From Pseudomonadota bacterium (GTDB lineage Bacteria; Desulfobacterota; Desulfobulbia; Desulfobulbales; CALZHT01), in NCBI GenBank assembly GCA_018823135.1, contig JAHJJF010000089.1, positions 1 to 43,627 of the forward strand: a stretch of 43,627 nucleotides of DNA. Reading direction: 5' to 3'. Shown in pieces: positions 4,279 to 27,002 of the stretch. The notes under the pieces were generated by a model that was not told the origin of the DNA, made no database searches, and was given only the letters and a program-made list of their open reading frames with translations. Both the position numbers and the translations under genes were made by a program. Each line of letters opens with the position of its first letter. Position 1 is the stretch's first letter.

Positions 4279-5406
4279 ATGGCAAAATCAGCTATTAAAA
4301 CCAAACCCTGGTGCGTTTTTTGTGGCCAGACCATTGCCAAGCCCCGCCCCTCTAAAAATCGAAAGCTTGGTGAATTTACTGAGGGCAGTTGTCAGTGCGG
4401 CGCCGTATACAGTTGCGATCCAACCGGCTTCAATGTTGGAGCAGCAATAGTCGAATGCATGGTTAACGCCTGCAATGACGACTGGGACCTTGCGTGGGAA
4501 CTGATCCCTGAAACGGATTACCTGACCGGTCGACTTGAAAATTACGATGAAATTACCAATCAGGTGATTGAAACAAAAAATCTCGACGGCAGAAAAGTCA
4601 AAGGTGTCATTTACTTTATCCGCCTCCACAAAGATATCAGCGAGATCGCCGCCCGATCACAGAATAAGGATTACAATCCAAGCTCTTCCGACAGGAAAAA
4701 TACCATCCCGGACCTGGAACCCACCCGAGACCCTAAACGTAAAAAGAAGCGGGCCGACAAAAAAATCATCCAGGAAATGGCAGCGGCCGGAGATATTGAC
4801 GGGCTCGTGGATCTTGTTTTCGACGACACAAAAACCCTGCGATTCCTCCAGCGCATACTCTACACTCCTGACGATGTCCTGCGCTGGAAAACAGCTCATG
4901 TCATCGGCAAAGTCTGCGCCCGTCTGGCTACCCGCCAACCCGGCAAAGTCAGTGATCTGTTGCACCGATTGTTCGCCGCATGCTCTGACTCCGCAGCCTC
5001 AAGCTGGGGAGCCATTGAAACCATTGGCTCAATCATCGGCGAACGGACCGATATTTTCGGGGCCTTTACGCGACATCTTTTAAATTATCTTGATGATCCG
5101 GCGACCCTGCCGCTGGTTCTTTGGTCCCTTGGAAAAATTGCCAAGACCAGACCGGACCTGATCCGCAGCATCTCGTTCTATCCGCTGCTCAATCACCTTA
5201 TGCATCCCGATGCGCTGGTTCGCGGCCTTACACTGATATTATGTGACCGTATCACCGCAAAAGAAGCAACAAGCACCATTGAGAAACTCACCGTTGACTC
5301 TTCTTCCTTCACCTATTATGAAGCAGGTGAACAAACAGAAACCACCGTAGCAGCTTTAGCCAAACAAGCTCTGGACTCAATTAATCGTCAAGGAGATAAA
5401 AAATAA
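4279..5406 (+). CDS. HEAT-repeat-like protein with N-terminal cysteine knuckle
   Basis: A 375-residue protein. The amino end has C12-x-x-C15 and C38-x-C40 with C46, a zinc-ribbon-like arrangement. A conserved-looking region about 100 residues long and a basic linker (about 145-160) follow. Residues about 165-345 are alpha-helical, HEAT/PBS-lyase-like repeats (VLRWKTAHVIGKV, SSWGAIETIGSI, LPLVLWSLGKIA), the type of alpha-solenoid used for protein binding. It resembles a family annotated in Desulfovibrio as DVU0298-like, but I cannot confirm this without a search. It starts 3 nt after the TPR gene, and its TAA overlaps the next ATG as TAATG, so the three genes are translationally coupled. The function is unknown. 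Confidence 0.82.
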   Translation: MAKSAIKTKPWCVFCGQTIAKPRPSKNRKLGEFTEGSCQCGAVYSCDPTGFNVGAAIVECMVNACNDDWDLAWELIPETDYLTGRLENYDEITNQVIETKNLDGRKVKGVIYFIRLHKDISEIAARSQNKDYNPSSSDRKNTIPDLEPTRDPKRKKKRADKKIIQEMAAAGDIDGLVDLVFDDTKTLRFLQRILYTPDDVLRWKTAHVIGKVCARLATRQPGKVSDLLHRLFAACSDSAASSWGAIETIGSIIGERTDIFGAFTRHLLNYLDDPATLPLVLWSLGKIAKTRPDLIRSISFYPLLNHLMHPDALVRGLTLILCDRITAKEATSTIEKLTVDSSSFTYYEAGEQTETTVAALAKQALDSINRQGDKK

Positions 5407-7596: not shown

Positions 7597-8724
7597 TTAC
7601 TTAATATGGCTTGTGTATTTAAACTGGGTGGTGGTCCGCCAGGTATCATATGCCAGACGGTAATCATCAATGCTCTTATCAGTGAACGGAATGTTGCACT
7701 TTTCAAAGAACTTCTCCCAGCCAATTCTCTCAGCCCATTCACCAACACGCTCATACTTTTTAGCATCTTTAGCATATGTTTCGAGAATGTTCTTTACTGC
7801 AGCAACAGTCTCTGGCCAACGAGGCGGGGTGTTGGGCAAAAACGGAATAACCATTTTGGAGAATTTTGGAGTTGATCTGGAGTTGGAGATTTTGCCACCA
7901 ACCAGGATTGCAATTCCGTCACCGTCTGGATCTGCCAGAGGCATAGCCGGACACATGGTATAACAGTTACCGCAGAACATGCAGCGATCATTATTAACAG
8001 CTACGGATTTTACTTCCTCACCCTTGCTGTTGATGCCCTTGGCAGGTTTAACCGCTCCAAGAGGACAAGCAGAGATTGCCAGGGGCAACTCGCAGACTGC
8101 TGTAATGGTATCGTGATCAATCATCGGCGGCTTACGATGAACACCGAGGATAGCGATATCAGAACAATGCACCGCACCACACATATTCAGACAGCAGGCA
8201 AGAGCAACACGAACCTGCGCCGGCAGTTTCATGCTGGTGAAATAATCAAACAGTTCATCCATAACAGCTTTAACAACACCTGAAGCGTCGGTTGCAGGGG
8301 TATGGCAATGTACCCAACCCTGGGTATGAACGATATTGGTTACACCGGCACCGGTGCCGCCGACTGGCATACTGCCATGTTTGGCGCAAGCATCAAGCAG
8401 AGGCTTAACCTTGGCAGCACTGTCAACCATGAATTCCACGTTGTTCCTGGTGGTGTAACGCATGACGCCGTCAGCGTGTTTGTCAGCGATATCACAGTAG
8501 TCACGAATCATCATAACACTGATCAGTCGAGCGCAACCCACGCGAACGGTGTAGCATTCGTCGCCGGTTTCACTGACATGTTTAAGAACACCTGGTTGAA
8601 TGATCTCATGGTAAAGCCATTTTCCGAAGTTTTTCTTGATGACCGGCGGAAAATATTGCGCATAATGCTGGGGACCAATATCTGTTATCCTGTCCTTCAT
8701 CGGATTTTCTGGATCATAGCCCAT
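7597..8724 (-). CDS. dsrB: Dissimilatory sulfite reductase beta subunit
   Basis: A 375-residue subunit of the cytoplasmic A2B2 enzyme that reduces sulfite with electrons delivered through DsrC and DsrMKJOP. The cysteines of the siroheme-[4Fe-4S] centre are present as C140, C177, C178 and C182 ([12 protein letters not shown]). The inserted ferredoxin domain uses C220 and C248, C251, C254 (CMFCGNC). A perfect AAGGAGG stands upstream of the ATG at 8724. It lies between dsrA (62 nt gap) and dsrD (23 nt gap) in one operon. Length and motifs match the reductive bacterial type. Confidence 0.98.
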
Positions 8725-8786
8725 CGTATTACCTCCTTATATCATTAAATCGTAATTTAACTTTCAGTTAATGAACCAAAGACTGC

Positions 8787-10067
8787 TTACATCTTATGTT
8801 TTTTTCTGAATTCCGCAACACTGCGCTCAAAGCCGCCTTCAACTTCTTCGTCCTTCCAAAAAACGTAAGGATTGGAACGAGGCTCTCTGATATGCTGAGG
8901 AATGGGCGTGATTTCCATGATAGCAAGGAAAGCCGGCAGACCAATACGCTGAATGGACTCACCGATACGCTCACGGTTTTTGCCATGCTCCATCCACCAG
9001 TCCCATGCCTTTTCAATAATTTCCTTATACTCTGCGAATTCATTCTCAAGGTCCATTTTGATAAAAGGAACGACCATGGTAGCGATCTGGGCGCCGTCAA
9101 GGATCGGGGCTTTTGCTCCAAAAAGAATTGTCGCGCCTTGATCCTTACCTGGGCGAAGCGCGCGAGGCATTACGTTGATGCAATGCATGCAGCGGGTACA
9201 TTCGCTGTTGTCTATTTTCAGTTTATCGCCTTCCATCCACATGCAACCGGTGGGGCAAAGGTCGATAACTTCTTTCTGGATATCGAATGGGCCCCAATCA
9301 CGGCCGGCATGCGCACCGCCGTTAGAAGGGAAATCGCCTTTCATGTAACTTTTTACTGCGGCCTGATCAATGCGGATGCTGTCTCTCCAGTTACCGATAA
9401 CAGCCATGTCCGAACGGGCAATAGCAGCAACACAGTCATTGGGGCATCCGGAAAATTTGGTTTTGAATTTGTACGGGAAAGCCGGACGATGCAACTCGTC
9501 CTGATAAGTCATGGTGATATTATGACATGCAGCCTGAGTGTCATAACATGCCCATTCGCAACGTGATTTACCAAGACAGCAGGAAGGAGTCCGCAGGTTA
9601 CCACCGGAGCCACCAAGATCCATCTTCAATTCATGCGTGGCGTCCCAGAAAATCGGCTCAAGCTGATCAGTGGTGGTACCAAGAAGTACGAGGTCACCGG
9701 TTGAACCATGCATATTGGTCATACCGCTACCGCGTTTTTCCCACATGTCACAGATTTTGCGAAGAATTTCCGTTGAGTAGTACTTACTGGACGGCTGGTT
9801 CAAACGTACTGTATGGAAATGAGCAACACCAGGGAACTTAGCCGGAGAATCGGAATAACGACCGATAACACCACCGCCGTATCCGAATACACCGACGATG
9901 CCGCCGTGCTTCCAATGAGTAATTTTGTCTTTAAAAGAAAGTTCCAGCTGGCCCAAAATATCCCAGCACTGATCTTTCTTTTTTGCCATCCGTTTCAGGT
10001 CGGTTACAAAACTCGGCCATGGACCACTCTCTAATTGGTCCAAGAGGGGCGTATCATGCTTTGGCAT
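8787..10067 (-). CDS. dsrA: Dissimilatory sulfite reductase alpha subunit
   Basis: A 426-residue catalytic-complex subunit, close to the usual length of about 437. Siroheme/[4Fe-4S] ligands are seen as C164-x5-C170 and C208-x3-C212 (SGCPNDC), with the same 38-residue spacing between pairs as in Desulfovibrio DsrA. The ferredoxin domain has C271 and C290, C293, C296 (ECTRCMHC). The ATG at 10067 follows TAAGGAGG. It is the first gene of dsrABD; a candidate sigma-70 promoter lies about 190 nt upstream. In the dimer the DsrA-side siroheme pocket is often structural or non-catalytic, depending on the enzyme. Confidence 0.98.
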   Translation of the reverse strand: MPKHDTPLLDQLESGPWPSFVTDLKRMAKKKDQCWDILGQLELSFKDKITHWKHGGIVGVFGYGGGVIGRYSDSPAKFPGVAHFHTVRLNQPSSKYYSTEILRKICDMWEKRGSGMTNMHGSTGDLVLLGTTTDQLEPIFWDATHELKMDLGGSGGNLRTPSCCLGKSRCEWACYDTQAACHNITMTYQDELHRPAFPYKFKTKFSGCPNDCVAAIARSDMAVIGNWRDSIRIDQAAVKSYMKGDFPSNGGAHAGRDWGPFDIQKEVIDLCPTGCMWMEGDKLKIDNSECTRCMHCINVMPRALRPGKDQGATILFGAKAPILDGAQIATMVVPFIKMDLENEFAEYKEIIEKAWDWWMEHGKNRERIGESIQRIGLPAFLAIMEITPIPQHIREPRSNPYVFWKDEEVEGGFERSVAEFRKKHKM

Positions 10068-10571: not shown

Positions 10572-11690
10572 ATGCGGTTCATATTTCTTTTTTCTTCCCC
10601 CAACGGTGACATCCCCGTTGATCAGCAGCACCGGACCCGGCCTCTGATACTGAACCCCGGAGAGACTCATCCCTGTTTAACCCTTGGCGATTATTTCAAA
10701 ACACTTGCTGCTTTTATTCAACAAAACCTCGACATAATTCTTTCAGAGCTTAAACCCTCTCTTGCCATGGCAGATATACAGACAATATTCCTGCGCACCG
10801 AAAAACACGGCGCCCTCTATCATATCGCCAGCGCTGAAATCGTCTCTCCGTCAACACGTGAAAAATTCGCCATCAGCTCAGCCATCACCGCCCAGGGAAA
10901 AGAAACGCTGATCAGAGATACCGCCGTCCTTGAGTCTCTGGGGGAGACCCACGGACCATCCTTTATACCTCGAATATATTGTAAAGGATCCCTGGACTGC
11001 GGCAGCCAGCAGCAGACAGAAATTTTAAACCTCGTTGCTTCCGAGTGGTTCGAGGATTATCACGAATGGCATCTTACCGCCGATGGAGAAGCAATCAAGA
11101 TATGGGACAATACAAAGGGAAACAGGATTGCTACGGAAGGAGAGCAAACTGAAATTTTCCGCCAGGTAGCCCTAATCCTTACCGTGTATTACGATTTCAA
11201 TACCGGCAAACAGATCCACCCATGGCATCATGCTGCAGGGGATTTTATTATTCGTGACAATAACGGAACAACCGCCGTCAAACTCACTACGGCCCGTGAT
11301 TACCGGCAGATCATTGAACTTGAAAACGACTCCCCCCATTTCCCACTGCTCTCCCTGCTGATTTTCTTTCTGCATCTTACCGTCCGTACCCGTCTTGATA
11401 AAGTTGAAGGCACCGACCAAGCCGTATGGGCAGGAAACTTTTCAGTCACGGCAACCCTCAGAGGATTTATTGAAGGGATCAGAATGCATGAGTCCCTGAG
11501 AAGGTCCCTGCCCTACTCGTCGCAGGAAATAATCGGCATTCTGCAATCCTATACCGCCAGCGACTTCAGCGCAATCATCCAGCCCCTGATGGATGTCTAC
11601 CTTGCAGAAAACCCCCGGGAACACCAGTTCATATCCCGGCATCTCGAAAATCATCTTGCTGAAGTCTGCGGTGAAATCGCCCGACTTTAA
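10572..11690 (+). CDS. Conserved-looking hypothetical protein divergent from dsrA
   Basis: A 372-residue protein not recognised with confidence. It looks globular and cytoplasmic, rich in aromatic and charged residues, without signal peptide or membrane helix. Residues about 90-125 read like a beta-rich N-lobe. A segment around 215-245 (IHPWHHAAGDFIIR, then AVKLTTARDY) faintly recalls the catalytic loop and metal site of aminoglycoside-phosphotransferase-like kinases, but the canonical HxD...N and D are not intact, so this is only a suggestion. The carboxy third is helical. The start at 10572 has no clear ribosome site, so the true start could lie slightly downstream. Being divergent from dsrA and upstream of a persulfide reductase gene, it may belong to sulfur metabolism. 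Confidence 0.7.
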   Translation: MRFIFLFSSPNGDIPVDQQHRTRPLILNPGETHPCLTLGDYFKTLAAFIQQNLDIILSELKPSLAMADIQTIFLRTEKHGALYHIASAEIVSPSTREKFAISSAITAQGKETLIRDTAVLESLGETHGPSFIPRIYCKGSLDCGSQQQTEILNLVASEWFEDYHEWHLTADGEAIKIWDNTKGNRIATEGEQTEIFRQVALILTVYYDFNTGKQIHPWHHAAGDFIIRDNNGTTAVKLTTARDYRQIIELENDSPHFPLLSLLIFFLHLTVRTRLDKVEGTDQAVWAGNFSVTATLRGFIEGIRMHESLRRSLPYSSQEIIGILQSYTASDFSAIIQPLMDVYLAENPREHQFISRHLENHLAEVCGEIARL

Positions 11691-11816
11691 AAAAAATTAC
11701 CTGAAATTCTTTCGGCATACTCCTTGAAATTCTTCGGCTTTTCTTTTAGATTCTCTCTTCGGCCTTACACACGGCACTCACCCAGAAAAGTCCACTCCCA
11801 ATAAATGAGACATACA

Positions 11817-13550
11817 ATGAATAAAAAAATAGTAATCATCGGCGGAGTCGCAGCAGGACCGAAAACCGCAAGCCGCCTCAAACGTCTTATGCCCAATGCG
11901 GATATCACAATAATTGACCAGGACAATCTCATTTCGTATGGCGGTTGCGGCATACCGTATTTCGTTTCAGGAGATGTCACCGATGAAAAGGAATTACGCA
12001 CCACGAGTTTCCATGTGGTGCGCGACGAGGATTTCTTTGAAAATGCCAAAGGCGTCAAGGCGCTTACTTCCACCCGCGCCCTGTCAATCGACCGGAAAGC
12101 AAAAACGGTTCACATTGAAAATGTCATAACCTCCGAAAAAAGCACCCTTGCCTATGACAAACTGGTGCTTGCCACCGGCAGTAAACCCAATGTCATTCCG
12201 ATTCCCGGCGCCGACCTTGACGGCATCTTCACGGTGAACAACATGCACAAGGCCATGGCGATCAAAGAACGCCTCACCAAGGGCAAGGTCGGCCGCGCAG
12301 TGATAATCGGCGGCGGCTTCATCGGCGTAGAGATGGCCGAGGCCTTCGGCGACCTCTGGGGCATTGAAACGACTATCATCGAATTCATGCCGCAACTGCT
12401 GCCGCGCATTGTCGATCCGGTTTTTGCCGGAATGCTCACCCATCATCTTGAGAAAAACGGCGTCACCGTGCACACCAACGAAAGTGCTCAAAAACTCGAA
12501 GCCGATGAAAACGGCAAGGTCGCGAGAGTGGTCACCGATAAGCGCACCCTTGAAACAGACATTGTGATCATGGCGGTGGGCGTCCGCCCCCGGAGCGAAC
12601 TTGCCCTGGATGCCGGCCTGCTGGTCTCACCCCAGGGAGCCATTGTGGTTAATAACCGGCTGCAGACTTCCGACCCGAACATTTACGCCGCCGGCGACTG
12701 CATAGAAACCACCCACCTGGTCTCAGGCAGTAAATCCTACGCACCACTGGGGTCCCTTGCAAACCGCCAGGGACGCGTCGTTGCCGACAATATTGCCGGA
12801 AACCATAAGACGTTTAACGGCATTGTCGGCAGCTTCATCATGAAGGCCTTTGAGTGCTGCATCGGCGCCACCGGCTTGAGCCTCGAGATTGCCCTGGCCG
12901 AAGGTTTCGATGCGGCCTCGGTAATCACCGCCCAGTCGGACAGAGCGCATTTCTTTCCCACCCAGGCGGTTATTCCATTAATGATGGTCTTCGACAGATC
13001 AAACGGCAGGGTTCTGGGCCTGCAGGGATTCGGCCCCGCGTCCGATGCGGTTCTTGCCAGAATCGATGCCGCAGCCGGCCTCATTGCAAAAGGCGCAACC
13101 GTAGACGATTTCAGCATCCTGGACCTGGCATATTCGCCGCCTTTTTCCACGGCACTTGATGCGCTTAATGCCACGGGTAATGTTGCTGAAAATTATATTG
13201 CCGGCCGCCTGCGGACCGTTGGGGTAGCACATTTTGACCACTGGATGAACAATCCTGAATCAGAGTCTGAGTGGGTTGCCCTTGACATCCGGCACCCGAA
13301 AGAGGCAGGGGAATTCGCCGCCCTCTATGGCGGCCGCTGGATTGCCATGCCCTATGTTGAAGTTCGGAAGCGCTTTCAGGAATTGCCTGAGGATAAAACC
13401 CTGATCATCATCTGCGATGCCGGTACGCGTTCCTATGAGATACAGTGCTTTCTGGACAGCACAGGAAGGGTTGGCAGCCTCGTCCTCGGAGGCGGATTCA
13501 ACATTTTTCGCAGGCTGGGTCCTGTTTGGTGGCCCGGCTCAGAAAACTGA
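11817..13550 (+). CDS. CoA-disulfide / persulfide reductase with C-terminal rhodanese domain
   Basis: A 577-residue flavoprotein. The amino end is the FAD-binding fold (IIGGVAAGPK), with the single redox cysteine C44 in SYGGCGIPYF typical of CoA-disulfide reductases. A second Rossmann motif (VIIGGGFIGVEMAE) binds NAD(P)H, and the dimerisation domain follows. The last 110 residues are a rhodanese domain with its active cysteine C533 in CDAGTRS. This arrangement (CoADR-RHD) is known for NADH-dependent reduction of CoA-persulfide and polysulfide. Beside dsrAB a role in sulfur or persulfide handling is likely. The ATG at 11817 is preferred to 11805 because a GAGA element precedes it and the FAD motif then starts at the usual place. 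The gene converges on the topoisomerase-like gene with about 40 nt between stops. Confidence 0.9.
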   Translation: MNKKIVIIGGVAAGPKTASRLKRLMPNADITIIDQDNLISYGGCGIPYFVSGDVTDEKELRTTSFHVVRDEDFFENAKGVKALTSTRALSIDRKAKTVHIENVITSEKSTLAYDKLVLATGSKPNVIPIPGADLDGIFTVNNMHKAMAIKERLTKGKVGRAVIIGGGFIGVEMAEAFGDLWGIETTIIEFMPQLLPRIVDPVFAGMLTHHLEKNGVTVHTNESAQKLEADENGKVARVVTDKRTLETDIVIMAVGVRPRSELALDAGLLVSPQGAIVVNNRLQTSDPNIYAAGDCIETTHLVSGSKSYAPLGSLANRQGRVVADNIAGNHKTFNGIVGSFIMKAFECCIGATGLSLEIALAEGFDAASVITAQSDRAHFFPTQAVIPLMMVFDRSNGRVLGLQGFGPASDAVLARIDAAAGLIAKGATVDDFSILDLAYSPPFSTALDALNATGNVAENYIAGRLRTVGVAHFDHWMNNPESESEWVALDIRHPKEAGEFAALYGGRWIAMPYVEVRKRFQELPEDKTLIIICDAGTRSYEIQCFLDSTGRVGSLVLGGGFNIFRRLGPVWWPGSEN

Positions 13551-13591: not shown

Positions 13592-16192
13592 TTATTTTTT
13601 CCGCCGCACCACCACTCTTCTCTTGACGCCGCCTCCCGGAACTCTCCTGATCCTTACTGTTTTCTTTTGGGGTGCTGCTGAGGCATCGCCTGCGTCGTCA
13701 GGCACCGCCGCTCCGGACAAGGACTGTTTGTAATTACAACCGGCCCTGGGGCAGCGCAGTTCAATTTTTCCGCGAATATTTTTCTTTTCCACGAGATACG
13801 GCAGACTACAGGCCGGGCAGACAACTGGATGGGGTTTTGACCAGGCCATGAATTCGCATTTATCTTCGGGACATACATAAAAATCCTTCCCGGCCGGTGT
13901 CCTCTTAAGTATTACCGTGCCTTGGCGACACACAGGACACTCCATGCCTTCGTCCTGTGTCCCGACAAAGGCTTCCGTGTGCCGGCACGCTGGAAAACCC
14001 GAGCATGCCCAGAACTTTCCATACTTATCCCCCTTCAGCAGAAGAGGCCGTGCACATTGGGGACATTTTCTTGATTCCTTGGTTGCCGGACTGATCGCCT
14101 GGCCGGGCATGTCCGGCTCCGGCCCGGTTTCCATCTCTGCCGGCAGATCATCGAGTGCTCCTGCCACTTGAACCTCATCGGCCTGTTCATCTCCCCCCTG
14201 GATATCATCCTCCAGGGAAGCATTTGCTGTTTCCATCTTTTGGTCAAGTCCTTCGCCCACCCCTTCCGCAAGTCTTGCGTCTTCAGTTTCAATGACAGCA
14301 GCCAGCTCATCGGTTTGCAGATCAGCCGAATCCACTATTTGCCCACTTTCCTCGGGGATTTTTACTTCCGCCGGCTCGATCTCCCTTGACGGGAGCTTCT
14401 GAGGCGGCGCGGATGGAGACGCCTTAAAAATACGGCTTGAGGTTTGCTGCCGCCTGGGCATTTGCGGCGCTGCCTGGGAAGACACCTGCTGTTGTGATTG
14501 GGCTGCCTTCCCCAAAGACTTGCCCTGCTGGTAAAAAGTCTGCTCGAACTGATTGAGTGCAAAATCAGGGGCTTTCCGGCCGCTCACTACTTCTTCGACA
14601 GTCTGTTCGATATAGGCAGAAAGATTAATCCCGGTCATGGTCGGGAAAACCCTGTTGACAATATCGGTGACCTTGAACAATCTATCAAGACATTGCAGAT
14701 AGCCGTCCTGGTCGATTTCAATATATTTCAGGTCCAGAAGCTGTTGGATCAAATCCACGCCAGTCCGGTCAAAAATCATTGAAAAATCAGCAAGGTCGAC
14801 AAACAGGCTGTCAAGGGTATACAGTTCCGCAGGAAAGACACTGATCTTTTCAGGCAGAATTTTCAACAGAGAAAAAATCTGCCCTTCCACTGCCCCGGCA
14901 AGAGGACAGGGGTCAAGCAAAGACTTTTCCTGGGGCGAGTGGCAGGCACGGAGATAGCCTTTTTCATGCACCGAACGCATGCTCGCATGAAACGCGCAGT
15001 TTTCGCCCGCAGAAAAATCCACTCCTATAGTCTCGCCTGCCGCAGGGATCATCTGGCTTGCCAAAGCCCTGTTGCGAATCAAGGAATATATCCTTGATGC
15101 CGTTTCCCCAGATGCCTGCCTGACCGCGTTTTCCGGGATTTCCGGCTTCAAGGGAACTATGTGCCCGGAGTCCGGGTCAACATCATTTCCCCGGCCCAGG
15201 GCATCCTTGCCAAAGGATTCGGAAACCTGTTGCCTGATCTTCTCAATCATCCCGAGAGTGACACCGTTATCCATGGGAAGACATGATGAAATCAAACCGA
15301 GACGTTTGCCGTCAATGACGACGCCTGCAAACAACTCAGTAACCGCCTGGAATGCCTGTTTCGGCGAAATACCGTGGAACAAAAAAGCATCCTGTAATAA
15401 ATCAGGAAGTCTATAAGGCGACGGGGCGGGGATTTCAATGGATGAACGGTTCACCGATGTAACGGTGAAAGGATATTCTTTAAAGCTGTTGACTATGGCT
15501 CTTACCTGGTCGGGATCCTCTATGAAGCCATCATCACTGAGATGCCGCACGTGCTGCAGGCGAGCGAAAAGTTCTCCCTGTTCAGCAGAAAGATTGACCC
15601 TCACCTGCCATTTCATGGTGGGGGAATAGAGTTCGATTTCGTTTTTTCGTTCGCCCAGGAGAAAAAGGGTGGTGAGGCTTGATGAGTTCAACTGCAGATC
15701 GCCCGGCCCGGATGCTGTGCCGATCAGTCTTTGCAGATGCCGGGAAAGACAGGAACTGAACAGGGTTCTGATCAGAAAATTCCAGCCGCCGGTATCTTCG
15801 ACGGGTTGCGCCTCTTCAAATGCGGTGGCGATATCCTCAGGATTCAACCCAGCAGGCATCAGCCTCCTGGCCGGTGGAAAATCCTCTGATTTGGAAGCAA
15901 GAAACCCTGCAATCATCCATGACCAGTAATCTCCCATATGGTCGTTGTCAAGAGCGAGATAAATACCGCTGGCGGCAGATGCCAGCAATTGCACAGAAAA
16001 TTCCCGGGCCTGCTCTGTGGGAGCGAAATCAAAACTCAGACCTCCTTCTTCCGGTTCTTCGTCGCCCGACGCTACAAAAGATACCTTCATGGGCGTTGAC
16101 AGCAGAAGGATTGTTTCTATGTCAAGAGCTGCGTTTGCTCTTAATGTTTGCGCCTTAACCTCAGAATCGACAATCACAACCGTTTTTGCCAT
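13592..16192 (-). CDS. Topoisomerase I-like protein lacking the catalytic tyrosine
   Basis: An 866-residue protein that follows type IA topoisomerase architecture but with altered catalytic sites. The Toprim region keeps an acidic residue (D9) and a changed DxDxxGE motif, DNDHMGD (82-88). The region aligned with the active-site GLITYMRTDS reads GLISSCLPMDN (299-309), so the tyrosine is Ser303 and the arginine is lost. Family landmarks around it remain, such as LIRNRALASQMIPAA (371-385), matching the LIWxRFVASQMAPA element. Residues 550-705 are acidic and disordered. Three zinc ribbons follow (C710/C713/C730/C736, C752/C755/C774/C779, C792/C795/C814/C819), then a very basic tail. It likely binds DNA without cutting it. 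It is divergent from the FGE-like gene. Normal TopA must be elsewhere in the genome. Confidence 0.85.
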   Translation of the reverse strand: MAKTVVIVDSEVKAQTLRANAALDIETILLLSTPMKVSFVASGDEEPEEGGLSFDFAPTEQAREFSVQLLASAASGIYLALDNDHMGDYWSWMIAGFLASKSEDFPPARRLMPAGLNPEDIATAFEEAQPVEDTGGWNFLIRTLFSSCLSRHLQRLIGTASGPGDLQLNSSSLTTLFLLGERKNEIELYSPTMKWQVRVNLSAEQGELFARLQHVRHLSDDGFIEDPDQVRAIVNSFKEYPFTVTSVNRSSIEIPAPSPYRLPDLLQDAFLFHGISPKQAFQAVTELFAGVVIDGKRLGLISSCLPMDNGVTLGMIEKIRQQVSESFGKDALGRGNDVDPDSGHIVPLKPEIPENAVRQASGETASRIYSLIRNRALASQMIPAAGETIGVDFSAGENCAFHASMRSVHEKGYLRACHSPQEKSLLDPCPLAGAVEGQIFSLLKILPEKISVFPAELYTLDSLFVDLADFSMIFDRTGVDLIQQLLDLKYIEIDQDGYLQCLDRLFKVTDIVNRVFPTMTGINLSAYIEQTVEEVVSGRKAPDFALNQFEQTFYQQGKSLGKAAQSQQQVSSQAAPQMPRRQQTSSRIFKASPSAPPQKLPSREIEPAEVKIPEESGQIVDSADLQTDELAAVIETEDARLAEGVGEGLDQKMETANASLEDDIQGGDEQADEVQVAGALDDLPAEMETGPEPDMPGQAISPATKESRKCPQCARPLLLKGDKYGKFWACSGFPACRHTEAFVGTQDEGMECPVCRQGTVILKRTPAGKDFYVCPEDKCEFMAWSKPHPVVCPACSLPYLVEKKNIRGKIELRCPRAGCNYKQSLSGAAVPDDAGDASAAPQKKTVRIRRVPGGGVKRRVVVRRKK

Positions 16193-16452
16193 AAAAGATC
16201 TCTCCGTGATTCTTTATGGTTTCGCTTCTCCTCAAAACCGTTTGTCCCAATGGTCCGACCGGTACTATACAGTAAAAGGATACTGTTTAATATATAAAGA
16301 AAACATGCTAGAATTTTATTTTTATTTAAGAAAATTAAACAAATTGTTCGATAATAACCTTAGGTCGCACCAGTTTAAAAGTATGTCCATTATCTGCTTG
16401 AATACAGCAAGTCCAAAACTGTTGGCAATTAAGATGGCCACGGAGCAGTAAG
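16193..16452. promoter_or_regulatory. Divergent promoter region with an inverted repeat
   Basis: 260 nt of AT-rich DNA between the topoisomerase-like gene and the acidic FGE-like gene. ACAGT (16269-16273) and ACTGT (16282-16286) form an inverted repeat with an 8-nt spacer inside an AT-rich, promoter-like stretch. It could be an operator shared by both genes. No -35/-10 pair is clear. Confidence 0.3.
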
Positions 16453-19257
16453 ATGCCGATCCAGATCTCCTCCAAAGGAATTACCGAAGCCATACAGGGC
16501 CTTACTCTCCGGCCAGGAACCCTTAAGGCGAAATTCATTGAGGCGGTATACGCCTACTACCTGAATGAAGATTCATACCCCACCGACCCCATCCCCACCG
16601 AAATCCTTATCGCCCGCATCTGGGAAATCGATTCTGCAGAAGAAATCCGTGCCAAACGAAAAAATTTCAGCAGCACCAAGTCCTCGCTCAATAAATCTCT
16701 TAAAGAACTGGACAAAGATGGGAAAAACCCTGAAGGAATAACCATCGGCAAAGATAATCTCTTTACCATCTCCGATGAAAAAAAAGATTCATTAATCAAA
16801 CAAATCGACGTCAGCTCAGAAGCGACCAGATCACTTCTGGAGATGGTTTCATCCTTTAAGAAACTGTTCGCTGAAATAACTGAAAAACAAGACAACAGTG
16901 CTGTAAAAAAACTGATCAAAGAACTTGAGAACACACAATCAGTTGTACAGAATCTTGTCGACATCCTCCCGGATGACCTTGGACAGACACCTTCCTACCC
17001 GGACGGAGAAGAAAAAGAGACTATACATTTGAGGCCCACACCCGGTGCATCAGTTGATGGAACGGCACAAGGCAATATTGAAGATTCTGAAGCCGGAAAA
17101 ACCGGCGGTATCGATGATATAAAATCGGGTCCCGAAAACCCTGAAAAATTTCTGTCTTCCGATGCTTCACAACATGACGCTGCCGCTAAGGTCGGCGACG
17201 ACGACGGAATTGAAACAATTGGCGCGGAAAGTGAAATTGGAAAGCCCGAAGCCGGAGTGGAAACCCCAGCAGGTGCTGATGAGCTCGAAGAGACTGAGTT
17301 CGAGGAAGAGGAAATCCTTGAAGTTGACGATGAAACACTTGCGAGAATTCAGGATATCGTGGCGGATACTGACGGGATCGGCCCGGATAATGTTGGAGGA
17401 TTCGGTGCAGCTGGCGGGGATGAAGGTTCCGGGGCAGCAGGTGGATCAGCTCCCGGTGATACCGGCCACGGATTCGGGGCAGAAACTGAACCTGGTTCGG
17501 GTATTCCCGATGCGGAAGAGACCCAGCGTGCGCTCGACTGGTTGGCGGATGAAGACGTTGAGATCATTGAGGCGGACGATGAAATTCTTGATGAAACCCT
17601 GGACACGCCAGTAGAGGCAATTGCCGAAGAATCCGTCTCCCTGGCCGATGAGGGGACTGCCGGGGAGACGACATCCACTCCGTCCGTAACCGAAGGCCCT
17701 GATGGAAGCAGCCTGACCGATGATATCCAGGAGGACTATGAGGAGGAGATCATCGAGGTTGACGACGAAACCCTCGAGAAAATCCAGGACATCGTGGCCG
17801 AAGCCGATGGAATCGGCCCGGATGATGCTGAACGCCTCAGCGCGGATGACGGAGGGGAAGGGCCCGGCGCAGCAGGTGAATCATCTGAAGAATCTGCAGG
17901 TCCTGGGTTCTGGGCAGGAACTGAACATGATTCAGGTGTTACCGATACAGGAGAGACCCAGGGTCTGCCCGATTGGATGGCGGAAGAAGACATGGAAATC
18001 ATCGAAGCAGAGGATGAAATCCAGGATGAAGCCCTGAAAGAACTGACTGAAGAATTCGAAGAAATTGAGGAAGTCGAAGTTGCAGAAACTGGATCTGCCG
18101 AACTCGAGGCAACCGAAGCAAACGGGTTCGAGGAAATTCTAGAGTCAGAAGAAATCGAAGATGTCTCGACTGATGCCATGGAGGAGAGCCTGGCTGAAGA
18201 TATTGAAACCGAAGACCTTGAGGAGGTCGATGAAGAAGAAATTCTGGAAGTCGATCAGGAAACCCTTGAGGAAATCAAACGAATCAAAGCAGCTCTCGGT
18301 TCTGCCACCGGGGTTGCCGCAGACGGTGAATCGGCAGATAAACCACGGCTTCTTGAAGTTTTATCGGAATACATGAATCCCCAGGAAGCCCTGGCAGACA
18401 CACCAAAAACCCTCAATGAATCCCATGAAGAATATATTGCGCAAATCATGGAACGATTCACCCCGAAATTCATCACAATCCCTGAAGGGCGATATAGCAT
18501 CGGCAGTAAGCACCCAAAAGCAAATGAGCAGCCCAAGAAGACCGTTCTGCTCAAAAGTTTTCATCTCGGCCAGTTTCCCATCACCAATGATCTTTTTGAA
18601 CTATTCGTGCGTGATACCGGCTATGAGACCGACGCCGAACAGGCGGGCTATGGGGTTGTTGTCGAAGGAAAATGCCGCGACACCATTGACCCGGAATCAG
18701 GCAGGCAGCTGTTTACCATGACCAGGAGCGCCATGGCGCAAAGTATGAACGGCGCCAACTGGCGGCACCCGGACGGCCCGGGCAGTTCAATTGAGAATCG
18801 GCATAATCATCCCGTAGTCCAGGTGAGCCGCAGGGATGCCATGTCGTTTGCAGCATGGGCAGGGAAACGCCTGCCTACAGAAGAAGAGTGGGAGACAGGT
18901 GCACGTGGCAATGACGATCGCCTTTTCCCCTGGGGCAATATGTGGGGCGCTGATAATGGAAATTTTGAAGGGGCCTGCCACAGCGGCACGACTGCCGTGG
19001 ATCACTACGGAAAAAAATCAGCAAGCCCTTTCGGGATTTATGATCTGCTGGGCAATGTGTTTGAGTGGACTTCCGGGGAATATCGGCAAGACCCGGCAAG
19101 CCATATCAAACCGACGGCTGCCGTTTATATCCTCAAGGGCGGCTCCTGGGCCACGGCCGGGCCGGTTACCATCGCCGCCCGTCTCCTGGAAAGAGGTGCT
19201 TACTGGTCCAACACCATTGGCTTCAGGTGCGCGGTAAGTGACCGGGAACGATCGTAA
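16453..19257 (+). CDS. Acidic repeat protein with C-terminal FGE/SUMF1-like domain
   Basis: A 934-residue protein in three parts. Residues 1-170 are helical and basic, possibly winged-helix. Residues 180-660 are extremely Glu/Asp-rich with an internal duplication of about 145 residues: EEILEVDDETL blocks near 285 and 430 with a third near 594, and DW-EIIEA-DE blocks near 362 and 507. Residues 672-930 are a formylglycine-generating-enzyme-like domain (FITIPEGRYSIGS, AWAGKRLPTEEEWE, GIYDLLGNVFEWT, LKGGSWA, IGFRC). The paired cysteines of true FGE near the GGSW region are absent, so sulfatase activation is unlikely; such domains often act in ligand binding or other oxidations. No signal peptide is seen. 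It is divergent from the topoisomerase-like gene, which has its own acidic linker. Confidence 0.85.
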   Translation: MPIQISSKGITEAIQGLTLRPGTLKAKFIEAVYAYYLNEDSYPTDPIPTEILIARIWEIDSAEEIRAKRKNFSSTKSSLNKSLKELDKDGKNPEGITIGKDNLFTISDEKKDSLIKQIDVSSEATRSLLEMVSSFKKLFAEITEKQDNSAVKKLIKELENTQSVVQNLVDILPDDLGQTPSYPDGEEKETIHLRPTPGASVDGTAQGNIEDSEAGKTGGIDDIKSGPENPEKFLSSDASQHDAAAKVGDDDGIETIGAESEIGKPEAGVETPAGADELEETEFEEEEILEVDDETLARIQDIVADTDGIGPDNVGGFGAAGGDEGSGAAGGSAPGDTGHGFGAETEPGSGIPDAEETQRALDWLADEDVEIIEADDEILDETLDTPVEAIAEESVSLADEGTAGETTSTPSVTEGPDGSSLTDDIQEDYEEEIIEVDDETLEKIQDIVAEADGIGPDDAERLSADDGGEGPGAAGESSEESAGPGFWAGTEHDSGVTDTGETQGLPDWMAEEDMEIIEAEDEIQDEALKELTEEFEEIEEVEVAETGSAELEATEANGFEEILESEEIEDVSTDAMEESLAEDIETEDLEEVDEEEILEVDQETLEEIKRIKAALGSATGVAADGESADKPRLLEVLSEYMNPQEALADTPKTLNESHEEYIAQIMERFTPKFITIPEGRYSIGSKHPKANEQPKKTVLLKSFHLGQFPITNDLFELFVRDTGYETDAEQAGYGVVVEGKCRDTIDPESGRQLFTMTRSAMAQSMNGANWRHPDGPGSSIENRHNHPVVQVSRRDAMSFAAWAGKRLPTEEEWETGARGNDDRLFPWGNMWGADNGNFEGACHSGTTAVDHYGKKSASPFGIYDLLGNVFEWTSGEYRQDPASHIKPTAAVYILKGGSWATAGPVTIAARLLERGAYWSNTIGFRCAVSDRERS

Positions 19258-23065: not shown

Positions 23066-23476
23066 TCAGACCTCTGTTTCCAACAAAAGCCCAAGCAGAT
23101 CATCCAGTTTTGCCCTTAAATTCAGCAACTCTTCTGAAGGGAACTGGCGGATCAATTCTCCACTTTTCCGGTCCGTGACCTGAACCACTACACTTTCAGG
23201 TTCCTTGAGGAGAACCAGATTCAATCGCGTTCCCATGGATTCAAGACGCTGCTGAACTTCATCAATGATCTCCGACGCCTGTTCTTCCGACAGACTTTTC
23301 TTGCGCGGCTCATCTTTTTTTCCACGAAGTGCCTTTTCGTCCAGTTCAGCCTTGCTTGAATCGCTGCTTTCCCTAATCGGCAGGATTTGCGGCTTAGATC
23401 TGTTTTCCATCTCCACGGCAGGAGCCGTCGGCATGCCAAAAATTTTGGCCTCGGTATTCATGTTAATATCAACCAT
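23066..23476 (-). CDS. flaG: FlaG family flagellar protein
   Basis: A 136-residue protein. The amino half is charged and probably disordered. Residues about 60-135 match the FlaG domain: a helix (SEIIDEVQQRLESMG), then strands (TRLNLVLLKEPESVVVQVTDRKSG) and the motif LIRQFPSEELLNL. FlaG proteins affect flagellar filament length; the exact mechanism is unclear. The ATG at 23476 follows AAGGAGG. It is the last gene of the flagellin-fliD-fliS-chaperone-flaG series on this strand, 134 nt after the chaperone gene. Confidence 0.9.
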   Translation of the reverse strand: MVDINMNTEAKIFGMPTAPAVEMENRSKPQILPIRESSDSSKAELDEKALRGKKDEPRKKSLSEEQASEIIDEVQQRLESMGTRLNLVLLKEPESVVVQVTDRKSGELIRQFPSEELLNLRAKLDDLLGLLLETEV

Positions 23477-23610
23477 TGGCTACCTCCTTTCATCCTTGTT
23501 CTTCTTTTGCGTAAAGCATGATAAATTCTTCCTTGAATTCATTTAAATATAGCAAAACTCCCTGCAATTCCCACTCGTATTTATAATTAAAAACAAGACG
23601 CATAAAGTTC

Positions 23611-24030
23611 TTATGTCCGGTTACTGAAAAATCTCGGCCGGGGTGATTGCCCGGAAGCTGGATTGTATCCCATTATCACCTTCTTTCCTCTGCGAAGAGA
23701 ACGTATCTTCCCTCCGATAAATTCCTGCTTCTCTGAAACCTGTTGATGCAGAACCTTTTCCTCATCAATAAGCGTACCAAGCCACTGCCGAACCATTTCA
23801 GCAAAGGCTGGATCCTTATATCCCTGCTCCACCTCCAATCTCTCAAGACATTGCTGCAGCAGACGGAAGGCCTTGTCCCGCTCATCACACCAATGGGAAA
23901 CATATTTAAGCTCCCCGGCCGCTAATGCCCTGCCATGCTTTTCGGTCATCGCCGCAAAAGCCTCAAAAGCCTCAAGCACCTGCGACTTCAGTGTTTCGCC
24001 ATCCTTCTGCGTAGAGATCACGGAAATCAT
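23611..24030 (-). CDS. FliT/FlgN-like flagellar export chaperone
   Basis: A 139-residue, mostly helical cytoplasmic protein whose long amphipathic helices and position directly after fliS fit the FliT/FlgN chaperone group. These small proteins guard filament-cap or hook-junction subunits before export. Sequence in this group is poorly conserved, so identity rests on context. Its ATG at 24030 overlaps the fliS stop by four bases (ATGA), so the two are translationally coupled. The tail (residues 118-139) is basic and Pro-rich. Confidence 0.72.
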   Translation of the reverse strand: MISVISTQKDGETLKSQVLEAFEAFAAMTEKHGRALAAGELKYVSHWCDERDKAFRLLQQCLERLEVEQGYKDPAFAEMVRQWLGTLIDEEKVLHQQVSEKQEFIGGKIRSLRRGKKVIMGYNPASGQSPRPRFFSNRT

Positions 24031-24536
24031 ATTGCTACGGACAGGCCGGTTTTTTTCCCGTCCTTTCCCTGGCTCACTGGTTTGTTTTTCCGGTCTGAGA
24101 TATTCCCAGCAGTGACGCTTTGATCATACGCCACATTCTTTTCTGCTGCAGACTTCTTTTCCTGCATAGCCGTCTGCTCCCAGATCTCTTTCAATCTTTC
24201 AACATATCTGGTGGCCTGGTGCAGGATACCGATGTCATTCCCCAGAGACACCTTCGGAAGCTCTGTAAGGATTGCTCCATACAGGCCCCGGAGAAACTCC
24301 GCCGCGTCAGAATCATCCTCAGAATTAATCGATGCAAGCAACTCAGTAACTATAGCTATGGCCTTGCCAAGATTTTCCCCCCTTTTCTGGGGATTCTTCG
24401 ACTCAATCCCTTCTTCCACCAACCTGAAATGAACCAGAAGACGCTCATACATCAGATGGATAAGTTTGACCGGATCAATACCTGTATTAACTGCCGCTGT
24501 CTGCCGATACACCTGTTGAGCGTGTGCTGCAACCAT
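24027..24536 (-). CDS. fliS: Flagellar export chaperone FliS
   Basis: A 169-residue protein with the FliS four-helix core at residues 5-125 (AAHAQQVYRQTAA, DPVKLIHLMYERLLVHFRL, ATRYVERLKEIWEQ) and a poorly conserved basic extension. FliS binds flagellin in the cytoplasm and prevents early polymerisation. The ATG at 24536 is chosen because AAGGAGG lies seven bases upstream; an in-frame ATG at 24542 is too close to that site. It sits 135 nt past fliD and overlaps the next chaperone gene. Confidence 0.93.
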   Translation of the reverse strand: MVAAHAQQVYRQTAAVNTGIDPVKLIHLMYERLLVHFRLVEEGIESKNPQKRGENLGKAIAIVTELLASINSEDDSDAAEFLRGLYGAILTELPKVSLGNDIGILHQATRYVERLKEIWEQTAMQEKKSAAEKNVAYDQSVTAGNISDRKNKPVSQGKDGKKTGLSVAI

Positions 24537-24670
24537 TCGCATACCTCCTTATATTTACTCTTGACTCTATTTTACCTGAAGTTATTGCTCAATAATCATT
24601 AAAATTATTTTACAGGGTCAACCCAGGCTCCGGTTTTTTAAAATTCAGATGCTACACATCTTCCTTTCAA

Positions 24671-26731
24671 TCACTTCTTGCTGCCGCCCCATTGGGAACT
24701 CAGACTTTCAAACTGGCTGGTGAGAAAATTTGAGATGGAGGTCATCTGGTTCATATATCGGTCCAACGCGGAAAACTGTTGAGCCATCAGTTCATATCTT
24801 TTATCAAGTCTGGCGATATTAGATTCAATGGTTTCTTCAAGATTGCTTATCTTTTCCTGGGCAGCGTTTTTCTCCGCCTCGATCAGCCCGGTACCGATAG
24901 TGCTGCCCCGGAGATAGTCATTCAATTGATCGGCAAATCCGGTGACATCATTCTCCGTATCGCCCAGGAAAAATCGCGAGACGGCATCGATGTTGTTGTG
25001 AAGCGCCCGGCTCAACACCGTGGAATCAATGGTGATGGTTCCATCGCGGTTGAACTCCATACCGAGATCAAACAGGGATCTGATGTTGCTGTCCGTGGTC
25101 GTCACCGTGCCATCGCTGTTGAGGGTCCGGCTGATGAGATCCTCGGTGCCGGCAACTGTAAAGACCATAAGCGATTCCAGCTGAAAAGGCAGGTCCCGGA
25201 ATGTAGTGCCGGCAAGAATACCGAATTCGCCGGTGTCCTGGTCATAGCCCGTGTTGGATTTTATTTCCTGAATTGCGGCGTTATAACTCGCCACCATTTC
25301 CTCAATCAGCGAGGTCAGATTATCCGTATTCATTGACACCGAAACCACTGCCGCGCCGGTATCTTCCAGGGTCAGAGTCACCCCTGAAAGCACATCACTG
25401 AAGGTATTGGTCTGTCTTTCATAATCAATTTTATTAATGGTAAACCCGGCGTTCAGGGACTCGGCCGCCGCTCCCTGTTTTTCGGTCATGGTCAGGGCAA
25501 GCTGGTCAAGATCGTTGAGGGTGATCCGGTTATCCTCTCCCTCGGTATTCGCTTCCAGAACCAGCTGATAAGGATTACTTGAAATGCCGGTATTCACCGC
25601 CGAGGCCGAAATCCCGGGATTATTGGTGTCATCGTTAATCAGACTGACCAGACCGCTTAAGGTCGTCTCTTTGGGGACATAAACCAGATAATTTTCACCG
25701 TCGATTTCATAGGAAAAGGTATCGCCCGGATTGCCTTCCTGAAAATCAATTACCGTGTTGCTGGCATTGATTGAAACCTGATACGATTCATTGGGACTGA
25801 TCTCTTCGCTCTCAATATGCAGGTAACTGGTGCCGTTGATGGTCTTGACCTGGGCGGCAATGCCGGAGAGGGCGTCGAGTTCATCGACCACCGCCTGCAG
25901 GGTCTTGCCGGTGGCGCCGCCGGAGATGGTGATCGTCTCCTGGGGGGAAGATGCGCCGTAACTGACGACAAAACTCGTATTGGCCGCCAGAAAGGTATCA
26001 ACTGCGGCATCGGCCACCCCGGTGGTTGAAAAATGCTCCAGGGCCACCGGCGGACTGCTGCTGAAACTCAAGGTGCCGGTGGAGGTCAGCTTGACCCGGT
26101 TGCTCTCGCTGTTGGTTGTTGTATCGGAAATTACCTGAAGATAATACTTGCCGTCGATCTGCTCGGCAGAGGCAGTCACATTACCGCCCAGAGACCCGGC
26201 ATTAATCTCGCTCACAACATCATCGAGACTTTTGCCGACACCGCCGCCACCCACGGTAAAGACACTTGAGCCGCCATAGGTCACGGTTATACTTGATGAG
26301 GCCGGTATATAGGTATCGGTGGAATTATCCAGACCGACAGCGGAATATTGTCTGATCGGCACATTGATGATCGAATCCGTTGTCTCCAGGTTACCGGATG
26401 CCCAGGAACTTTTTGAGGCCAGCCGGGCAACATCAAGGGACGCGGTCTGAAACGAAGTGCCGTCTATTACTGAAACGCTGATCACATCCTCATCGCTGCT
26501 GGAGGCGCTTCGCCCAAGGAATGTGGAAGAAAGGGAAAGGGAAAGTGCCTTGCTCTTGATATCAAAGAGCATGTTCTTGACAACGGTAAACTCCTCAAGC
26601 TGCGCTTCAACCTGAGTAATTTCGGTCTTTTTCTGCTCGACGAGCTGCTGGTCGACCTCGCGCAGCTGATCAATAATCCCTTGCAGATCCAGCCCTGAAC
26701 CAACGCCGAGGGTGGAAATTGAACCGACCAT
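24671..26731 (-). CDS. fliD: Flagellar hook-associated protein 2 (filament cap)
   Basis: A 686-residue secreted filament cap protein. The conserved amino end reads GLGSGLD-type (STLGVGSGLDLQGIIDQLREV), followed by a helix. The centre is Ser/Thr-rich beta sequence, longer than the roughly 470-residue enterobacterial proteins. The carboxy end is helical, with the family ending YMNQMTSISNFLTSQFESL. FliD caps the filament so that exported flagellin can polymerise. It lies downstream of the flagellin gene behind that gene's terminator, and ahead of fliS. The longer middle domain is surface-exposed and parallels the enlarged flagellin. Confidence 0.95.
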   Translation of the reverse strand: MVGSISTLGVGSGLDLQGIIDQLREVDQQLVEQKKTEITQVEAQLEEFTVVKNMLFDIKSKALSLSLSSTFLGRSASSSDEDVISVSVIDGTSFQTASLDVARLASKSSWASGNLETTDSIINVPIRQYSAVGLDNSTDTYIPASSSITVTYGGSSVFTVGGGGVGKSLDDVVSEINAGSLGGNVTASAEQIDGKYYLQVISDTTTNSESNRVKLTSTGTLSFSSSPPVALEHFSTTGVADAAVDTFLAANTSFVVSYGASSPQETITISGGATGKTLQAVVDELDALSGIAAQVKTINGTSYLHIESEEISPNESYQVSINASNTVIDFQEGNPGDTFSYEIDGENYLVYVPKETTLSGLVSLINDDTNNPGISASAVNTGISSNPYQLVLEANTEGEDNRITLNDLDQLALTMTEKQGAAAESLNAGFTINKIDYERQTNTFSDVLSGVTLTLEDTGAAVVSVSMNTDNLTSLIEEMVASYNAAIQEIKSNTGYDQDTGEFGILAGTTFRDLPFQLESLMVFTVAGTEDLISRTLNSDGTVTTTDSNIRSLFDLGMEFNRDGTITIDSTVLSRALHNNIDAVSRFFLGDTENDVTGFADQLNDYLRGSTIGTGLIEAEKNAAQEKISNLEETIESNIARLDKRYELMAQQFSALDRYMNQMTSISNFLTSQFESLSSQWGGSKK

Positions 26732-26926
26732 TGAGCCTACCCCTTACATTTTTGTCTGTAGTTAGAAAAACTTCTTGAATTCCTGTACCTGTATTCAATA
26801 AACGTATCGGCCACGCCTCCTGCCGACTTTAGATATATTTCCATTTTCAGGCATTTTTATCAAGAATGCACAAAAGCCCACCCCGCTGGGCTCACTCCCC
26901 TGAAAATTTTACCGTCTCGCCAAACC

Positions 26927-26965
26927 AAAAAAAGGGGCTGCGGCCCGAAGACCGCAACCCCTTTT
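26927..26965 (-). terminator. Rho-independent terminator of flagellin
   Basis: GGGGCTGCGG (26934-26943) pairs with CCGCAACCCC (26952-26961) with one mismatch, around an 8-nt loop. The minus-strand transcript ends in seven T (26927-26933). It sits about 40 nt past the flagellin stop. Confidence 0.92.
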
Positions 26966-27002
26966 GGTTGAGTTGATAAAATAATCCAGCAGCAGTAGAA
27001 AC

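Follow-up and report, generated by a model that had tools for sequence, protein, structure and literature searches.

A predicted non-cutting topoisomerase I paralogue and its divergent partner gene in Desulfobacterota

The window analysed here, a stretch of DNA of 43,627 nucleotides taken at its full length, encodes dsrAB and sat, as expected for a sulfur-cycling bacterium, and carries a gene for a topoisomerase I-like protein (pseudo-TopA) that lies divergently to a second gene, its partner (Table 1). On pseudo-TopA the Pfam family Topoisom_bac covers residues 175-542 with 102.8 bits (cut-off 35.1) and Zn_ribbon_Top1 (PF01396) covers residues 708-740 with 52 bits, and the NCBIfam equivalog topA_bact gives 121 bits against a cut-off of 456, so that the protein falls outside it. 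An AlphaFold2 model built with 24 orthologues has a pLDDT mostly over 90 in the core (residues 1-563), which aligns to E. coli TopA (1cy0) with a best Z of 28.3 over 508 residues at an rmsd of 4.8; according to this model, pseudo-TopA is a full four-domain toroid of the type IA fold. The fold landmarks read from the sequence in the initial annotation are thus borne out by Pfam, model and structural match, and the three C-terminal zinc ribbons and the acidic linker that it described are both present. Beside the gene, positions 11805-13550 encode a CoA-disulfide reductase-like protein whose extended C-terminus looks rhodanese-like by eye; in about 30 of 40 loci its gene is conserved next to pseudo-TopA in convergent orientation. 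Two ORFs on the plus strand of the window, at 10572-11690 (372 aa) and 4279-5406 (375 aa), have no Pfam match.

Table 1. Features of the pseudo-TopA locus and of an associated gene at other loci; positions are those of the window unless a locus is named
Feature	Position	Strand	Remarks
Pseudo-TopA, type IA topoisomerase paralogue, predicted to be catalytically dead	13592..16192	-	866 aa, ATG start
Toprim domain, residues 1-129	15806..16192	-	D82 and D84 kept; first Glu is Asp9
Domain IV, first segment, residues ~123-191	15620..15826	-	family-specific HLxRLxGTxxGP; retained in short forms; overlaps the last residues of the Toprim match at its N-terminal edge
Domains II and III, residues ~192-452	14837..15619	-	wholly absent from short forms
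Former active-site segment GLISSCLPMDN, residues 299-309	15266..15298	-	Ser303 at the position of Tyr319; no Arg321
Domain IV, second segment, residues 453-563	14504..14836	-	contains the most conserved family motif
Disordered acidic linker, residues 564-707	14072..14503	-	AlphaFold2 pLDDT under 50
Three C4 zinc ribbons, residues 708-824	13721..14071	-	12 conserved Cys
Basic tail, residues 845-866	13595..13660	-	repeated KKxVxVRR motif; none in TopA
Intergenic region between the divergent pseudo-TopA and partner genes	16193..16452		260 bp
Divergent partner gene	16453..19257	+	934 aa; acidic repeats between a winged-helix-like N-terminal and a SUMF1/FGE-like C-terminal end
Partner N-terminal domain, residues 1-165	16453..16947	+	near-invariant basic helix KKNxSSLKSxxNKxLK
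Partner C-terminal FGE/SUMF1-like domain, residues 671-927	18463..19233	+	catalytic Cys pair absent
ParA-associated small protein	L173:7342-7743(-), L172:2311-2712(+), L174:11330-11830(+), L176:856-1275(-), L184 about 8600-9045(+)

The active site of the topoisomerase has been dismantled. E. coli Tyr319 aligns with Ser303 of pseudo-TopA, and Arg321, His365 (in HEAIRPTD) and the GRPSTY motif are all gone. Among 49 distinct members of the family, the Tyr319 position holds Ser, Ala or Thr in 44, Tyr in 2 and another residue in 3, and by the residue classes listed for the other two positions neither Arg321 nor His365 is kept in any (0/49 each). The two members that bear a Tyr (L023 and L027) come from one genus, and in both the Arg is missing and the Toprim DxD is broken (GSH, DSH). 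Control TopAs from the same search have an intact TYMRT/YMR[TS]D motif in 40 of 40 cases, and the window's own genome encodes a separate, intact topA on contig C42 (G000:C42), with GLITYMRTDS, HEAIRPTD and GRPSTY. In domain IV of E. coli TopA, the cleaved strand is gripped by Tyr177, Gly194, Arg195 and Gln197 (PMC7587558), and the equivalents of these residues are replaced throughout the pseudo-TopA family. The alignment is ambiguous over E. coli residues 172-177, with Arg155 opposite Arg173 in one version and not in the other, and the conclusion drawn here does not depend on it. As judged from these substitutions, pseudo-TopA lacks the cutting machinery and is predicted to be non-cutting. The replacement of Tyr by Ser303 and the loss of Arg that had been noted at the outset therefore hold, and two of the checks proposed with them, a search for orthologues sharing the losses and for an intact topA elsewhere in the genome, gave positive results; since none of the 49 relatives has a working Tyr/Arg pair, a sequencing slip is ruled out.

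The same annotation had also described the Toprim motif as degraded, which was too strong: the DxD is kept in the window's protein, where the first Glu (E9) and the last Glu of the motif have become Asp, and the metal ligands are mostly retained in the family (D111 in 37/49, D113 in 40/49, E117 in 39/49), so that a 'destroyed' Toprim motif was rejected. The DxD and Glu/Asp9 kept in most long forms, with a structural match of residues 3-129 to the Toprim domain of RNase M5 (Z 11.9), could be taken to mean that the domain was re-purposed as a metal-dependent nuclease or phosphotransferase for which Tyr is no longer needed. We consider this improbable, as the metal-binding acidic residues vary within the family, an aspartate being lost in about a fifth to a quarter of the 49 (GSH, TPD, PPD, DSS), and the short forms described below have no Toprim domain at all and still keep the partner.

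The 49 relatives belong to one order, probably Desulfobulbales to judge by the named ones, which are MAGs of Desulfurivibrio, Desulfobulbaceae, Desulfurivibrionaceae, Desulfocapsa and Candidatus Desulfobia pelagia. A scan of the genome contigs with a single protein as query returned no matches, and with an alignment as query 80 loci were kept, about 45 of which belong to the dead family, the others being genuine TopAs; loci of other phyla (Acidobacteria, Nitrospirae, Myxococcales) were rejected as members, being ordinary TopA. Half of the genomes of the window's order (29/58) carry the pseudo-TopA gene or a contig-edge fragment of it. Long members share the core, the acidic linker, two or three zinc ribbons and the basic KKxVxVRR tail, and their last 40 residues have a mean net charge of +11 (5 to 16, n=46), the corresponding value for TopAs of the same order being -0.15 (-3 to 3, n=20). 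Conservation within the family is highest in the motif AYxEQTxxEVxSGRKxxxxAxxQFxQ (also given with QFDQ), which lies in the second half of domain IV, in a stretch that is variable in TopA itself.

Outside the order, the family is represented mainly by short proteins of 460-521 aa or fragments of these (that of genome G237 is split across two contigs), which align to E. coli TopA only at about 149-216 and 472-590, corresponding to domain IV. In these short forms domain IV is followed by a linker, two zinc ribbons and a basic tail, and the Toprim domain and domains II-III are absent. A long form, frameshifted and on a different contig, occurs outside the order in G283. In a tree of domain IV, the long and short dead forms fall into one clade (100/100) apart from TopA and the short forms group together (94/88), which indicates a single inactivation with reduction afterwards. 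The suggestion of a separate family made in the initial annotation is well founded in this clade, in the conserved substitutions peculiar to it and in the intact TopA found alongside. In nine pairs of near relatives, pseudo-TopA has a dN/dS of 0.15-0.45, a clear sign of purifying selection. It might be argued from the many lost catalytic residues, and from the frameshifts or gaps in some MAG members, that the gene is a decaying pseudogene or a product of sequence error or misalignment, but the ortholog set excludes this for practical purposes, as 49 distinct members show family-specific conserved residues and full-length ORFs, together with purifying selection and a high-confidence fold model.

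The partner combines a conserved N-terminal domain, in which K70, S73, K76, S77, N80 and K84 are near-invariant, with a C-terminus of the FGE/SUMF1 fold family (PF03781, 176 bits), the nearest solved relative of which is human SUMF2 (E 8e-39). No significant match to the N-terminus was obtained in the PDB, either by sequence or with Foldseek; the best rows returned by the structural aligner for its model are winged-helix domains, with a best Z of 7.3 that lies under the aligner's noise level of about 8, and the winged-helix likeness is thus suggestive only. Two Cys just before GFRC, which we take to be the active-site cysteines of catalytic FGE, are present in none of 28 partners, and a single one in 4 of 28. 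Given that catalytic residues are missing from pseudo-TopA and from the partner, both appear to be inactive enzyme derivatives.

Between its two conserved ends the partner contains acidic repeats (window positions 17020-18372), the length of which differs greatly among relatives and within which many MAG contigs break. An rRNA operon or a mobile repeat as the cause of contig breaks beside pseudo-TopA was rejected; the breaks correspond to this repetitive acidic region. A motif search in 38 intergenic regions found only subgroup blocks of about ten regions, and one such block, GCATATAATCTGCAAC, is common to about ten of the 38, probably near relatives, and may serve one subgroup as a promoter or operator.

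Partner and pseudo-TopA are divergent in 38 of 40 loci, the remaining two ending at a contig edge. The partner was found in 26 of the 58 genomes of the order, each of which (26/26) also has pseudo-TopA, and the converse, pseudo-TopA without partner, is seen only in G002, G007 and G011, where the gene stands at a contig edge every time. A phylum-wide search of 395 genomes with the partner N-terminus found 13 carriers outside the window's order, and pseudo-TopA is present in all 13. The two genes are divergent in the window's order and in G431, co-directional in L167-L171, convergent in L175, and divergent with two genes in between in L172-L174 and L176. Such an adjacency, outlasting rearrangement, argues for a functional pair. 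Paired dead-enzyme modules, one of them FGE-like, could also form an anti-phage or other conflict system, and FGE-like domains do occur in some bacterial conflict systems; ParA-like and small proteins moreover accompany pseudo-TopA in some lineages. The prospect is nevertheless a slim one, as the locus is fixed, with identical housekeeping genes flanking it throughout the order, PADLOC gave no hit, and the partner was not found in 72,556 plasmid and 50,697 phage records.

The ParA association itself was seen outside the order, in two families: in five of their genomes a ParA-type ATPase, a small protein and a short pseudo-TopA follow each other in an operon. The small protein (134-167 aa, MKITxSExIKxGExELxDAIxAxLDW...) is conserved, its gene coming directly behind that of a ParA-type ATPase in several Desulfobacterota, and belongs to no Pfam or NCBIfam family. 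In the window's order no ParA lies beside the pseudo-TopA gene and a search of the 58 genomes did not find the small protein, so that ParA cannot be essential to the basic function, and in other genomes the pair of ParA and small protein also occurs without pseudo-TopA or partner, so that it is best regarded as an optional associate. It is still the only direct pointer to a process, namely nucleoid-based positioning or partition. The partner, the short forms and this association had no place in the initial annotation and came to light in the follow-up analysis.

A link to the genome's intact TopA or to transcription was considered as well. Pseudo-TopA might regulate either, by competing or heterodimerising with TopA, through its zinc ribbons, for RNA polymerase or negatively supercoiled DNA and so tuning supercoiling, or by controlling genes, such as those of the nearby flagellar cluster, together with the partner. 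The zinc ribbons are closest to those of the genome's own TopA, with 37% identity over 705-832 compared to about 22% in the core; FliD lies 6-9 kb from pseudo-TopA in 7 of the 9 orthologous contigs of sufficient length, and flagellar genes are also found next to the partner in two lineages that do not belong to the order (L174, L208). However, the order of the zinc ribbons, the acidic linker and the basic tail are unlike TopA, the conserved neighbour is the partner and not topA, and the co-occurrence with FliD is weak (25/29 vs 17/29, Fisher p 0.04, uncorrected for phylogeny), four pseudo-TopA genomes having no FliD. We therefore rate such a regulatory role as rather unlikely, though it is the most likely of the rival readings. 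In the window, FlaG, FliS, FliD and a large flagellin (974 aa) are encoded at 23066-29927, 4-10 kb from the partner.

The explanation that we favour, with a probability of roughly 0.6, is that pseudo-TopA is a pseudoenzyme paralogous to TopA which lost its catalytic function in a single event early in the Desulfobacterota and has since been retained as a non-catalytic protein that works with its divergent partner; the best reading of its biochemical role, we infer, is that of a DNA-tethered scaffold. The zinc ribbons of TopA bind ssDNA and RNA polymerase (PMC4678816). In pseudo-TopA, the zinc ribbons and the basic tail would anchor the protein to DNA or to transcription complexes, and the re-sculpted domain IV would offer a docking surface for the partner in place of a strand-cutting groove. 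The partner would in turn bind nucleic acid through its winged-helix-like end and use its acidic repeats or its dead FGE-like domain to contact pseudo-TopA, so that the pair would act as a DNA-tethered scaffold or regulator, which in lineages carrying ParA may be positioned on the nucleoid by the ATPase. Some features count against this scheme: long forms have for the most part retained the metal ligands of Toprim, which would be superfluous for a pure scaffold, and the ssDNA-gripping residues of domain IV are lost. The original proposal of a non-cutting, DNA-binding derivative accordingly stands in its first half and only partly in its second, in favour of which the zinc ribbons are kept and a basic tail is gained, and against which the strand-grip residues of domain IV are replaced. 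More tentatively, the scaffold and its partner could be pictured as a chromosome-associated machine of the Desulfobacterota, made of two dead enzymes, reduced stepwise and driven by ParA in some lineages, that serves nucleoid organisation, DNA positioning or segregation; we hold this wider picture as possible but doubtful.

No family of dead type IA topoisomerases was found described in the open literature, subscription papers and preprints being outside its coverage, and two reviews of type IA topoisomerases, searched for terms of this kind (PMC10969213, PMC9369019), describe only catalytic members. The fold of pseudo-TopA is itself a known one, and the two-gene module that it forms with its partner may be a new system. 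If a non-cutting family has indeed been maintained vertically, the topoisomerase toroid would have been exapted as a scaffold, and its natural reduction series would tell which part of the fold remains useful once catalysis is lost, namely domain IV and the zinc ribbons. It would further point to a new component of the nucleoid or of transcription in sulfur-cycling bacteria. For annotation, it follows that pseudo-TopA genes can be miscalled as a second topA.

Compared with known systems, pseudo-TopA resembles TopA in its toroidal four-domain fold, its mostly kept DxD and its C-terminal C4 zinc ribbons, and differs from it in the absence of Tyr319, Arg321, His365, GRPSTY and SxGHIRDLP, in the replaced grip of domain IV, in the added acidic linker and basic tail, in its obligate partner and in the existence of short forms without domains I-III. 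SUMF2 (pFGE), the inactive paralogue of FGE, likewise lacks the catalytic Cys pair and is the closest solved relative of the partner C-terminus, whereas in the partner, a bacterial protein, this part is joined to a winged-helix-like domain and to long acidic repeats. With partition ATPases of the ParA/MinD type the likeness is limited to the operon with short pseudo-TopA in five genomes, and such systems differ in that ParA and the small protein also exist without pseudo-TopA and that the small protein is missing from the window's order.
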